IMG/VR virus record: IMGVR_UViG_3300030451_004937
Location: 1 to 36,498 of that record
Length of the DNA: 36,498 nt
Direction: 5' to 3' (one strand)
Source of the DNA: a virus
The translations under genes and the position numbers were made by a program. Below the pieces are notes generated by a model. It was not told the DNA's origin, searched no databases, and saw only the letters and a list, made by a program, of their open reading frames with translations. The stretch's first letter is position 1. Each line of letters starts with the position of its first letter. Positions 12,863 to 33,369 of this stretch are shown piece by piece.

Positions 12863-13308
12863 GCAAACATAAACACATTTGGACTAAGATTAGAATGAGT
12901 CAACAGTTGGCACAGGCATCACCATGCCCACGAGCTAAAGTTGGAGCTATGTTATTTCAGCCAGACACATGGGTGACTTTAGCAGATGGCTACAATGGGG
13001 CACCTAGAGGTGGAGGTGATTTATGTGGTGGAACTATCTGCCATCGAGATGAGCAAAAAATTGTTAGTGGTACTAAGGTAGAGGTTGGTTGCCACCATGC
13101 AGAAGCTAACGCCATTTGTAACGCGGCTAGATATGGTCATGCTACTAAAGGCGCCTGGTTAGTTGTAACTAGACCACCATGCTTAAACTGTGCAAAGTTA
13201 ATTCATCACGCTGGTATAACTCAGGTATACACTACTAAGCATGATCGAGATTCACCAGGCTGTGCTTACCTCATCGAGCACAATATCAAGGTGATCAGCT
13301 GGGAGTAA
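12859..13308 (+). CDS. dCMP deaminase (149 aa)
   Basis: The zinc-dependent deaminase motifs are complete: H80-A-E82 (HAEANAI) and PPCLNC with C108 and C111. The length and the N-terminal AxSPCPRAKVGAM segment are those of phage and bacterial dCMP deaminases, which convert dCMP to dUMP. With ThyX it forms a two-step route to dTMP for phage DNA synthesis. The start overlaps the thyX stop as ATGA. Confidence 0.93.
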   Translation: MSKHKHIWTKIRMSQQLAQASPCPRAKVGAMLFQPDTWVTLADGYNGAPRGGGDLCGGTICHRDEQKIVSGTKVEVGCHHAEANAICNAARYGHATKGAWLVVTRPPCLNCAKLIHHAGITQVYTTKHDRDSPGCAYLIEHNIKVISWE

Positions 13309-13311
13309 CCA

Positions 13312-14076
13312 GTGGAGCAAGAACACTATCAAGAGAGACTGTTAGCCATTGTATTACTAGACCTCATTGGCTCAACTGACTTTGTAAGGCGAGTTGGTGC
13401 AATGAAGGCGGCTGAATGGTTACAATATCATGATAGACTTAGTCGCTCGATGCTCTACAAGTTCAATGGTAGAGAGATAGATAGATCAGATGGTTTCCTC
13501 TTGTCGTTTGAACGTCCTATTGATGCCCTTAACTTTGCTCTCAACTATCAGAAGACAATACCAACTAAAACTCATCTAGGTGCTAGAATAGGTATACATT
13601 GGGGCCAAGTGATTGAAGTAACACAACATGAGTTACTAGTGCTCTCAGGAGCTAAACCGATTGAACTAGAGGGACTAAGTAAGAACTTAGCGGCTAGAAC
13701 TATGTCAATGTGTCAAGCTGGCCAGGTACTACTAACTAAGCAAGCTTTCCAGGTCATTAAGGGACGCGCTAACCCCCATACACCGAAGGGTACTAGATAT
13801 GCTTGTGTTGGTCTCTATCAGTTTAAAGGTGTCAGACAACCTCAGACTATTTATGCGGTGGGTGTCACCATCGAATCACTACAGCCTCCTGAAGGTAATG
13901 AGAAGGTTAAGAGGATAGGCGGACCGGGTAAAATTAAATCTAAAGCTAAACATAGAAGGCTCAAAGAGTGGGCATGGTGGATACTGTGGCGATCATTCTG
14001 GTTGAGCTTAGGGTATATCATCTGTTTACTTTACCCCTTTATTAAACAGTGGCTTAAGGAGTGGTTAGATGAATGA
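13312..14076 (+). CDS. Class III nucleotidyl-cyclase-like protein with membrane tail (254 aa)
   Basis: The start is GTG 13312, with GGGAG 6 bases upstream. Residues 10-185 follow the class III cyclase fold: LLDLIGST with metal-type D17, REIDRSDGFLLSF with D60, ARIGIHWGQV (91-100), and the transition-state pair N125 and R129 in GLSKNLAAR. The residues known to set substrate choice differ from adenylate cyclases: the usual Lys region is shortened (EIDRS-DG) and the usual Asp is Glu (IELEG). This matches, from memory, a bacterial subgroup whose activity is not well characterised. Residues 219-245 form a membrane helix (WAWWILWRSFWLSLGYIICLLYP). It overlaps the next membrane protein gene by 8 bases. 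A nucleotide-signal enzyme at the membrane is inferred; a catalytically dead sensor is the alternative. Confidence 0.75.
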   Translation: MEQEHYQERLLAIVLLDLIGSTDFVRRVGAMKAAEWLQYHDRLSRSMLYKFNGREIDRSDGFLLSFERPIDALNFALNYQKTIPTKTHLGARIGIHWGQVIEVTQHELLVLSGAKPIELEGLSKNLAARTMSMCQAGQVLLTKQAFQVIKGRANPHTPKGTRYACVGLYQFKGVRQPQTIYAVGVTIESLQPPEGNEKVKRIGGPGKIKSKAKHRRLKEWAWWILWRSFWLSLGYIICLLYPFIKQWLKEWLDE

Positions 14077-14512
14077 AGAGTATGAAAAAAATAAACGTGG
14101 CTGGTGGTTCTCAATCTTCTTTATGCTGTTAGTGATGGGGCTCATTGTCTTCTTAGCCAGAGTTAGCATAGTAGATGAGAATCGTGATGTGCTCGTTGGA
14201 ATACTCGGCATGATAACGGGCTCAATCTCTTCAATGATTGCCATAGCCAGCGGGCGGGATCCATCTGAAGTTGAAGATCTTAAGGATAAGCTAGCATTTC
14301 AGGAGTCTGATAGAGCTGCACTCATAGCGCGTTTAAGGGATGCTAACATCCAGATGCAACTCTTGAGAGAACAGCAGGCGGCTTTGCAGTTTGCTATTAT
14401 CGAGCGTCTAAGCGTTCTTAATGGTTTTGAGCATCCTGCTAATGATGATGAGGTAAAACTACCAGAAGTAGTTGATCAGTGGCTACCAGCACAGCCAGAG
14501 TCAGAAGACTAG
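14069..14512 (+). CDS. Two-helix membrane protein with coiled coil (147 aa)
   Basis: Two hydrophobic helices lie at about residues 12-31 (WWFSIFFMLLVMGLIVFLA) and 42-61 (LVGILGMITGSISSMIAIA), joined by a short charged loop and followed by a coiled coil (VEDLKDKLAFQESDRAALIARL) and an acidic tail. The second helix resembles those of phage holin-like and small membrane proteins. There is no recognised cyclic-nucleotide-binding domain. Translation is coupled to the cyclase-like gene (8-base overlap), so a joint membrane function is likely. Alternatives are an additional holin or an antiholin. The stop overlaps the late promoter's -35. Confidence 0.6.
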   Translation: MNEEYEKNKRGWWFSIFFMLLVMGLIVFLARVSIVDENRDVLVGILGMITGSISSMIAIASGRDPSEVEDLKDKLAFQESDRAALIARLRDANIQMQLLREQQAALQFAIIERLSVLNGFEHPANDDEVKLPEVVDQWLPAQPESED

Positions 14513-32300: not shown

Positions 32301-32442
32301 TAGTCATGGCATAAGCTCGGCCGGTGGTACCATCGAGCCAACCACCTTCGCCAATGCCTCTACTATCCACCAGGAGGATGCATACTTAGCAGATAGTTCT
32401 GATAGGTTGGCAGTCTCTACAGATGCTCAGGAGTATAATTAA
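29350..32442 (+). CDS. Large tail-tip / central hub protein (1030 aa)
   Basis: The longest gene. It starts MSVSSEHGRRVFALQVAGLE and contains several beta-rich domains, including LDTSLSDKGIGQ and a mid-part with FRGRRAKLFMAHRFPNGNTS, FISESPYVEEGDTVSIS, which look like hub or tail-tip segments. The C-terminal third (SMIDSLLKTLGAVLVMKRDE, GDWLASTPPTWGIYEDIV) resembles the baseplate-hub part of siphophage tip proteins. It probably forms the tail tip and opens on receptor contact. Exact family not recognised. Confidence 0.6.
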   Translation: MSVSSEHGRRVFALQVAGLEYRYHSNTPPTTSSLDSNVATSIPYVDSEGIMGVSTFSASIDPSGGIADYSAVTITLQINRRGGVGDPGIIFGRCGARSASTKAQLSQSLNRTGSIARTSSSLTSLSYPRLLHIGAETIRASSATSTTVLISARGVAGSARQTHSVGLEGSFAPELSAEITTFRGRRAKLFMAHRFPNGNTSNYVEVVNGFISESPYVEEGDTVSISLLPLTALIDTSLSDKGIGQTRLLQGYHYYDGIHGSSLEYALGLTFAQQNLSNLQVTPDTSGTITASTFSVIVENLQGSSSYLADFDTSLPEGPESDEFPREHPRFPKFRRSQDSRFDNDGVFTSTLTYNSSLPGYDVTADNTPSNALNASEISAAESLQIRLPLVELKQHQLGNEEVKEWPDVVNDTLINSGPSSTSGVAGGFARWRLTPDNLIRAEKLSESPFTAQLYLWPNFGGFSILREALERFGVSQPLKWGTYGVSQPLNSIARLSYPLSFTSGDTPVIQTLGDQAPTEYFTLNMASAEATAGQQIRELPRAYYQQFEGAILVESTLGLPTTATAGEFYYITVVFYDWDLDETRHQVFKVTHESTALFGGSNVGVLLHLADDHRHLDTLSFGDWPDKDRALLFRGGDLEDERPGVALLKILQSGGGDGINGTYDVMNIGLNIPSANIDEDSFLSVDTASTLVMSGNIFGDGADLRSMIDSLLKTLGAVLVMKRDESTGDSKLSLVAVGNEKTSQSTTTINAGDWLASTPPTWGIYEDIVTQIEYNYEYDPAEDKLTSQTIFNNQEAISRYGDERSKISLELPGVTSRSFGRNAGDVFNYFLPTSSRLFNLLSNPLRTWSGSIGTGPSIFLDVGSYVQVSSPHLRGYSDSYGVTDGVGMIRAISQELMTEGCQLELITTGLSPVNWNSSARVSAISSTTSVTVNANDFSGSSLSDASFFQADDVVDYVPKGDHDSAITNLTILSVAGNLITFTSSHGISSAGGTIEPTTFANASTIHQEDAYLADSSDRLAVSTDAQEYN

Positions 32443-33137
32443 TGAGCAAGCTTACAAAAGCACAGCTAGAGAATCAGCTAGCTGAACTCAAAGCAGTTAA
32501 TGAAGCGCAAGCACATGAAATAAGAAGACTCGATAGAGCCATTGGTCAAGCTGAACTTGATCGTGATTATCAGCAAGAGAGACTTATTACTAATGTCTCA
32601 CCATCTGTTTTACCTCAAGTACCAGAACTTATCAGACGAGCATTGTCAGAATGGTCTCAAATTGTAGCTGAACCACCTGGTAAAAACTGGGAACGTATTG
32701 ATTATTATATTAGGTCTCGTGATTGTCTTGGCTGGACATGGGAAAAGCAGTACACAAAAAATAAACAGTTTGCATGGTGTGGAGCTTTCGCGGCTTACTT
32801 TTGGGGCCCTTACCTCAACTTTACAGCACGTCAAAAGATACTACCATCATGTTACAGGCTGTATAACAACTGGGTGAATACATCTCGTAAAGTAGAACCT
32901 GAGGAGATGCTACCTGGTGACATTGTTGTCATTTTCAACAGTAACAGAGCTAAAACCGGTGACCACATCACAATCTGTTTAGAGCCACCTTGTAACGGTA
33001 CCTTCAAGACTTTGGAGGGAAATGCATGGGGTACACTAGGCAACGGTGAACGCGGTGAAGGTGTAATTCAACATGAGCGACCAATGACCCAAGTAGCGTG
33101 GGTCTATCGTATTTTAGCGAGTGATTTAGATGAGTAG
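32442..33137 (+). CDS. CHAP/NlpC-type endolysin-like peptidase with coiled-coil N-terminus (231 aa)
   Basis: Residues 1-45 form a coiled coil (LENQLAELKAVNEAQAHEIR). The catalytic domain has the Cys in FAWCGAF (C113), then a Pro-Gly-Asp turn (EMLPGDIVVIF), the His in GDHITICLE (H175), and an acidic/Asn site in LEGNAWGT. These are the Cys-His-Asn elements of CHAP-like peptidoglycan hydrolases. Directly followed by a holin-like gene, it is the likely endolysin. A tail-associated lysozyme is possible because of its place after the hub gene. Confidence 0.75.
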   Translation: MSKLTKAQLENQLAELKAVNEAQAHEIRRLDRAIGQAELDRDYQQERLITNVSPSVLPQVPELIRRALSEWSQIVAEPPGKNWERIDYYIRSRDCLGWTWEKQYTKNKQFAWCGAFAAYFWGPYLNFTARQKILPSCYRLYNNWVNTSRKVEPEEMLPGDIVVIFNSNRAKTGDHITICLEPPCNGTFKTLEGNAWGTLGNGERGEGVIQHERPMTQVAWVYRILASDLDE

Positions 33138-33369
33138 TGAGCAACCAACTCAATCAGACAAGCTAGGAGGCCGTAAAGCTAGCGCGTTCTATGCTTGTCT
33201 CTTAGTAACTTTCATTCTAGCGATTTCCGGCAAAGCTGAGACTCATGTGCTAGGATTAATAGACACCCTATTCTTTATCTACGCTGGTGCCAATGTAGTG
33301 GCTAAACGCTACTCACCAGCTCAACCACAACCTCAACAACCTGATTCAAGACTGGAGAAGCCATCATGA
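33130..33369 (+). CDS. Holin-like membrane protein (79 aa)
   Basis: Two hydrophobic segments: about residues 19-34 (AFYACLLVTFILAIS) and 41-58 (VLGLIDTLFFIYAGANVVA), then a Pro/Gln-rich, polar tail. Short length, two helices and the 8-base overlap with the endolysin gene indicate a holin that permits endolysin to reach the wall. Sequence-level holin families cannot be named. Confidence 0.7.
   Translation: MSSEQPTQSDKLGGRKASAFYACLLVTFILAISGKAETHVLGLIDTLFFIYAGANVVAKRYSPAQPQPQQPDSRLEKPS

Follow-up and report, generated by a model that had tools for sequence, protein, structure and literature searches.

The locus analyzed here raises the question of what a phage does with a nucleotide cyclase whose gene overlaps that of a small membrane protein. 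The window, i.e., the whole 36,498-base stretch of an IMG/VR virus record, carries a gene for a cyclase-like protein (CYC) and, overlapping its end by eight bases (14069-14076), a second gene (G2) for a protein with two membrane helices (Table 1). The pair sits between the genes for dCMP deaminase and the portal. The overlap, the coordinates, and the two membrane segments reported in a preliminary description of this DNA were all borne out. Purifying selection on both genes is strong (dN/dS of 0.026-0.042 for CYC and 0.015-0.028 for G2); together with the homologues and a structural model, this rules out a chance reading frame or a misread fold, and the two-gene observation is far beyond chance.

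Table 1. Features of the window, and of other loci where a locus handle (L) precedes the position. A single number is the position noted for that gene.
Feature	Position	Strand	Remarks and evidence
Small terminase-like gene	9449		order around the pair
Large-terminase-like gene	10039		remote matches to annotated terminases
D12 adenine methyltransferase	11435		
ThyX	12206		
dCMP deaminase	12859		
GGGAG, likely ribosome-binding site of CYC	13301..13305	+	6 nt before the GTG; read from sequence
CYC	13312..14076	+	GTG start, 254 aa; predicted membrane-anchored class III nucleotide cyclase; PF00211, TIGR04510, model, Rv1900c
D17, first metal-binding Asp	13360..13362	+	invariant in 161/161 distinct viral homologues
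D57, acidic at substrate-specifying Lys/Asn position	13480..13482	+	aligned with Rv1900c Asn; D in 161/162 viral homologues
D60, second metal-binding Asp	13489..13491	+	invariant in 162/162
E118, second substrate-specifying position	13663..13665	+	Asp in Rv1900c (alignment)
N125-xxx-R129, transition-state motif	13684..13698	+	N125 in 159/163, R129 in 163/163
Conserved linker, cyclase domain to membrane helix, LQPPEGNEKVKRIGGPGKIKSKAKHRR	13879..13959	+	alignment
C-terminal hydrophobic (membrane) helix of CYC, core 222-240	13975..14031	+	Kyte-Doolittle maximum 1.39
AAGGAG, likely ribosome-binding site of G2	14056..14061	+	inside the end of CYC; read from sequence
G2	14069..14512	+	ATG start, 147 aa; two-helix holin-like membrane protein with C-terminal coiled coil
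G2 membrane hairpin, residues about 10-60	14096..14248	+	phrog_9990 match 14096-14245; hhalign residues 9-65
G2 coiled coil, probably cytosolic, residues 65-117	14261..14419	+	model helix; invariant columns
Mu-type portal	14570		follows G2
Endolysin-like ORF	32442-33137		
Candidate holin ORF	33130-33366	+	about 78 aa, hydrophobic stretch; overlaps end of endolysin-like ORF
TM3 examples, near the pair	L047:6079-6342; L052:7921-8178; L081:8188-8445	+	
TM3 examples, near the pair	L031:6802-7143	+	
TM3 examples, near the pair	L010:5654-5932; L036:4467-4745	-	

The cyclase and its relatives

CYC is, on the evidence of its sequence and model, a class III nucleotide cyclase domain with a predicted intact active site. 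The Pfam family PF00211 matches it just under the family cut-off (E = 2.6e-4), which is exceeded when CYC is scored with its neighbors in frame, and the NCBIfam model TIGR04510 matches residues 8-201 (E = 2.2e-47, 162 bits). Its AlphaFold model (mean pLDDT 92.7; 24 phage relatives) resembles class III cyclase domains (Foldseek E = 3e-13). Among solved structures, it comes nearest to the mycobacterial class III cyclases Rv1900c (LipJ), the best match (Z = 24.1, rmsd 1.8 Å over 171 residues), and Ma1120 (Z = 23.1), in line with the fold that had been read from the sequence. Membrane anchoring, likewise proposed at the outset, is consistent with a C-terminal hydrophobic segment (Kyte-Doolittle, 19-residue window) that lies within model helix 217-253 and is retained in 160 of 163 distinct viral relatives. 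CYC is without a sensory domain of its own.

Residue conservation was scored in 164 distinct viral cyclases, 161-163 of which were readable at each position. The residues to which the preliminary description had assigned metal binding (D17 and D60) and transition-state stabilization (N125 and R129) are invariant or nearly so (Table 1), and K115 is essentially invariant. Only N125 varies, with Ala in three viral homologues, all of which still have G2; the solved adenylyl cyclase Rv1900c carries His at the aligned position, and so loss of N125 is not proof of inactivity. The metal aspartates and the catalytic Arg are the same in Rv1900c and Ma1120. The phage enzyme differs from these two in a loop before D60 that is one residue shorter, in its additional membrane helix and partner gene, and in D57 and E118, which stand where the solved enzymes have base-selecting Lys or Asn/Asp. 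These base-selection residues had been singled out as unusual, which the alignments bear out: D57 is nearly invariant among viral homologues and matched by Asp in 80/80 cellular relatives (IDRSDG), and position 118 is occupied by E in 134 of 163 viral homologues, by N in 25, and by S in 3. Guanylyl cyclases have Glu at the Lys base-selecting position; we therefore weakly infer that an acidic D57 would favor GTP or an unusual base over ATP.

The closest cellular relative of CYC is the N-terminal part of TIGR04510 (mod_pep_cyc), a "putative peptide modification system cyclase" of Lysobacteraceae/Xanthomonadaceae. Both have the IDRSDG and GAK-E-G-K motifs, and in both the cyclase domain is followed by a PPxxxKAxR-type linker and then by a membrane helix, with a linker similar to that of CYC in 48 of 80 cellular relatives. 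The cellular members are proteins of about 830-950 residues, whereas CYC has 254 and lacks the C-terminal TPR region; it covers only positions 3-204 of the 814-position profile and scores 162 bits against a cut-off of 400 bits for the full-length family. A further difference lies at the transition-state Asn, which is replaced by Pro in all 80 cellular TIGR04510-type cyclases (KP.AAR; L152-L231), and the bacterial family may for this reason be catalytically altered. A search of 84,980 bacterial and archaeal genomes revealed no phage-type cyclase; the best hits were TIGR04510-type proteins with 35-43% identity, nearly all from Lysobacteraceae, and a G2 gene was absent near the cyclase at 80/80 cellular loci. 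In a quick tree, a single branch (support 94) separates the viral cyclases from the sampled cellular ones. About 50,000 deposited phage records yielded no close relative. One record labeled "Bacteriophage sp." (MT838110.1; L232) was set aside, as it is GC-rich, lacks G2, carries its cyclase in a long multidomain frame, and looks bacterial. A literature search, with most subscription papers and preprints outside its scope, returned nothing relevant on phage-encoded cyclases and no description of the two-gene unit.

The membrane protein encoded by the second gene

G2 has hydrophobic segments at about residues 12-34 and 40-60, joined by a very short turn, and continues after this hairpin into a long helix (65-117) that is modeled with a pLDDT of only 75. 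The helix contains an invariant patch, D81 R82 L85 I86 R88 L89 R90 D91 (DR..LI.RLRD). G2 exceeded no family cut-off in Pfam or NCBIfam, matched no PADLOC model (window protein), and gave no match in a structure search of the PDB, leaving the coiled coil without a solved relative; no known nucleotide-binding domain is recognizable in the protein. SLATT and AbrB identities were dropped because all such matches were sub-threshold (SLATT_fungal, 15.5 bits for the window protein vs. a cut-off of 26.5; best SLATT E-value among 16 G2 members, 7e-4).

The hairpin of G2 resembles those of holin-like proteins, through a remote link over about 57 membrane-helix residues. PHROGs gave remote matches only, among which phrog_9990 (E = 9.7e-6 for the best member) matched the hairpin at E-values from 7.5e-5 (window) to 5e-8 (a relative); at the E = 0.1 limit, weak matches to this family occurred in 3 of 14 control genomes. 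K1pha_43 of Xanthomonas phage KPhi1, encoded beside a glycoside hydrolase 19 gene, is also matched by phrog_9990, as is P26218_21 of Rhodoferax phage P26218, encoded beside a glycosyl hydrolase 108 gene. In most of the records examined, the gene for a P26218_21 relative comes directly after one for a lysozyme, amidase, or DD-peptidase, and one such relative is annotated as a holin. Profile comparison aligned residues 9-65 of G2 with the P26218_21 family (hhalign 89%, E = 2e-6), whereas comparison with an unrelated two-helix family (TM3, described below) gave 0.8%. It is this resemblance to endolysin-adjacent proteins, by phrog_9990 and by profile comparison, that leads us to call G2 holin-like. 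The endolysin-adjacent proteins (phrog_9990/phrog_1544) differ from G2 in having neither its type of C-terminal coiled coil nor an associated cyclase, and P26218_21 has an extra N-terminal region. G2 is a small protein, as holins are, with a hairpin related to proteins in holin position, but it is not itself endolysin-adjacent: the endolysin-like ORF of the window and the small membrane ORF next to it are 18 kb from the pair.

Inheritance of the two genes

CYC and G2 form a near-obligate unit. Among loci retrieved with the genes themselves as seeds, both were present in all 145 with room on the contig, and the five exceptions were all cut by a contig end; more divergent seeds returned both genes in 117 of 119 newly fetched loci, with the two exceptions again at contig ends. 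Seeding with terminase and portal, which does not presuppose the pair, and counting loci with both structural genes gave 75 distinct loci, of which 55 have both genes, 20 have neither, and none has a single one. The preliminary description had named co-occurrence in related phages as a check on the association of the two genes, and these counts uphold it. Eleven records of the sister group were searched whole: ten lack both genes throughout, and the remaining one carries the pair. In the 36-kb phages, portal and terminase trees explain presence and absence of the pair by about two changes, so that the 75 loci are not 75 independent events. Independent support for the unit comes from 50 jumbo-type loci on other contigs, many of at least 100 kb, because their neighbors are unrelated to those of the window. 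An overlap of 1-20 bases between the two genes was seen at 189 of the 249 loci examined; across all loci, G2 precedes CYC in 8, and CYC precedes a non-adjacent G2 in 20. Protein distances of CYC and G2 are correlated (r = 0.50; best of 500 permutations, 0.16). Candidates for the unit number in the hundreds in IMG/VR, and the carriers include many uncultured aquatic phages, from 36 kb to very large. In sister phages, the gap between terminase and portal is filled by an ECF-like sigma factor gene (L508:2744-3199, plus strand; similar in L500, L502, L506, and L520), and the gap looks like a cargo site.

The jumbo-type loci, like the holin-like relation of G2, were not part of the preliminary description, and neither was a third two-helix membrane protein (TM3) that they encode. 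This conserved protein of about 86 aa (PLKSKKFLAYLIA..GWK ... GFIQ.GYILGQAALDKY) is found in 41 of the 50 loci, at a median distance from the cyclase of 270 bases, and in 21 of 25 large records. TM3 weakly matches a holin PHROG and is possibly a third component of the unit; homology to G2 is unsupported (hhalign 0.8%).

Exceptions to pairing were seen in three TM3-seeded records with one gene only (98, 133, and 113 kb; possibly fragments). Two of these large records have G2 without a cyclase and one has a cyclase without G2. The former (L391:7461-8093, plus strand, in a 97.8-kb record, and L392, 133 kb) encode a divergent, longer G2 of 211 aa, with no cyclase found in the record; they are either fragments or cases of G2 with another partner. 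The 113-kb record has a divergent cyclase, directly preceded by an ORF (L393:8025-8396, minus strand) that combines a single hydrophobic helix with a coiled coil, a possible replacement partner. Two further observations concern individual records. A 96-kb record with the pair carries an adenylosuccinate synthase-like gene of the PurA/PurZ family (L049:1588-2652, plus strand), below the PurZ cut-off, and 2-aminoadenine DNA is possible in this phage. Single stops lie within three matched G2/TM3 stretches, all on the minus strand (G057:C1:27618-28073, TAG; G033:C1:62537-62788, TAG; G026:C1:173980-174234, TGA), and reflect upstream extension of the match, error, or stop-codon recoding.

Possible functions of the pair

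The preliminary description had linked the locus to Pycsar defense, and of this link the analogy of layout stands: both consist of two genes, one for a class III cyclase and one for a membrane protein. Pycsar is a bacterial defense locus, whereas CYC and G2 are phage genes, and CYC is closest to the cyclase domain of TIGR04510 and to class III enzymes such as Rv1900c and Ma1120. The receptor PycTIR has been shown to contain a cyclic-nucleotide-binding domain (CNBD); the corresponding model, PF00027, matched nothing in 25 phage carrier records including the window, with matches in 10 of 14 controls. PycC proteins select pyrimidines through an aromatic residue two positions before the first metal Asp (Y50/F60/F100; PMC11224242), whereas CYC has L15 there, and Leu is found in 155 of 161 viral homologues. 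The PADLOC models for PycC did not match the CYC of the window (one divergent viral homologue, L047, was matched at E = 3e-5), nor did those for PycTM and PycTIR match its G2. PycC structures are absent among the structural matches listed for CYC, which says nothing either way. Membership in Pycsar is ruled out by the missing PycC aromatic residue, PycTM match, and CNBD; the holin-like hairpin of G2 is a further difference. A comparable logic, a signal enzyme beside a two-helix membrane protein, is found in Panoptes and CBASS, whose effectors OptE and Cap15 can damage the inner membrane (PMC12657218). There the synthase is an mCpol or CD-NTase rather than a class III cyclase, the sensor part is a beta-barrel, CARF, or SAVED domain rather than a coiled coil, and the unit is not phage-encoded. 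The phage pair thus resembles Pycsar and Panoptes in layout and is not a member of either (PMC11224242; PMC12657218).

We tentatively favor a mechanism in which CYC makes a cyclic nucleotide that controls the holin-like membrane protein G2. CYC would form a homodimer at the inner membrane and make a 3',5'-cyclic mononucleotide; the nucleotide, or CYC itself, would act on the conserved coiled-coil patch of G2, and the G2 hairpins would thereby assemble into, or be restrained from assembling into, a membrane lesion. Such an arrangement would probably serve conditional membrane permeabilization late in infection or upon superinfection, i.e., lysis timing, lysis inhibition, or exclusion. Since the 25 phage records encode no canonical CNBD receptor, G2 is the obvious phage-borne partner, and the receptor would be either a host protein or G2 itself, through a new mode of sensing. 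This choice divides our favored mechanism from its main rival, a rather unlikely one in our estimate, in which G2 serves CYC as a sensor or regulatory membrane subunit and the signal acts on host receptors (CRP-like) to reprogram the host. Control of class III cyclase dimers by coiled coils is common, and such a subunit would suit an enzyme lacking its own sensory domain, co-inherited with a protein that is membrane-anchored as it is, in phages with no CNBD receptor among the records searched. The G2 hairpin, however, is like those of holin-position proteins and not of known sensors, and the very short turn between its helices leaves little space for an external ligand.

The same hairpin could place the pair in the lysis programme proper, with G2 as holin or antiholin and CYC setting lysis timing. 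Amidase_2/peptidoglycan-binding and SLT proteins are encoded within a few kb of the pair in several jumbo loci, where TM3 is also weakly holin-like; even so, we regard this as improbable, for a member of the Amidase_2 family lies close to the pair in just 12 of the 50 jumbo-type loci and the window keeps its endolysin and small membrane ORF far from G2. The existence of sister phages without the pair makes it unlikely to be an essential lysis gene, and a place in the lysis cassette everywhere is unsupported by the gene order of the window and by the jumbo neighbors. As the window has its own endolysin and separate small membrane ORF, and such sister phages exist, the pair is probably not the phage's only lysis route and looks more like an accessory switch than like essential lysis machinery. 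The decoy role and the superinfection exclusion raised in the preliminary description are speculation. For the former, CYC would flood or mimic host cyclic-nucleotide defense signaling, acting on Pycsar-type receptors; phages do manipulate nucleotide signals, by nucleases and sponges (PMC9117128; PMC11722364; PMC12657218), and the base-selection residues of CYC are non-standard. This reading is very improbable, as synthesis of an agonist would normally switch such defenses on rather than block them, CYC does not have the specificity residues of PycC, and the obligate membrane partner would be left unexplained. Least probable of all is that the cyclase domain is a non-catalytic scaffold positioning G2. 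The Ala at N125 in three viral homologues that keep G2 and the Pro of the cellular relatives point in this direction, while the invariance of both metal aspartates and R129 across about 160 sequences, and the His of Rv1900c, point away from it.

In its fullest form, which we think doubtful on balance, the favored mechanism would be a virus-exclusive second-messenger circuit: the phage would make its own cyclic nucleotide, possibly with an unusual base, and a holin-derived protein would read it through a new coiled-coil sensor and thereby determine if and when the membrane is breached. Known dealings of phages with nucleotide signaling mostly destroy or sequester host signals. A phage-made cyclic nucleotide with an obligate membrane partner would, if true, be the reverse case, i.e., a signaling circuit owned by the virus. 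It would offer a testable example of conditional control over a holin-like pore, together with a novel, CNBD-free sensor and perhaps a new cyclic nucleotide, and it would be categorically new if the holin-like protein G2 proves to be the receptor.
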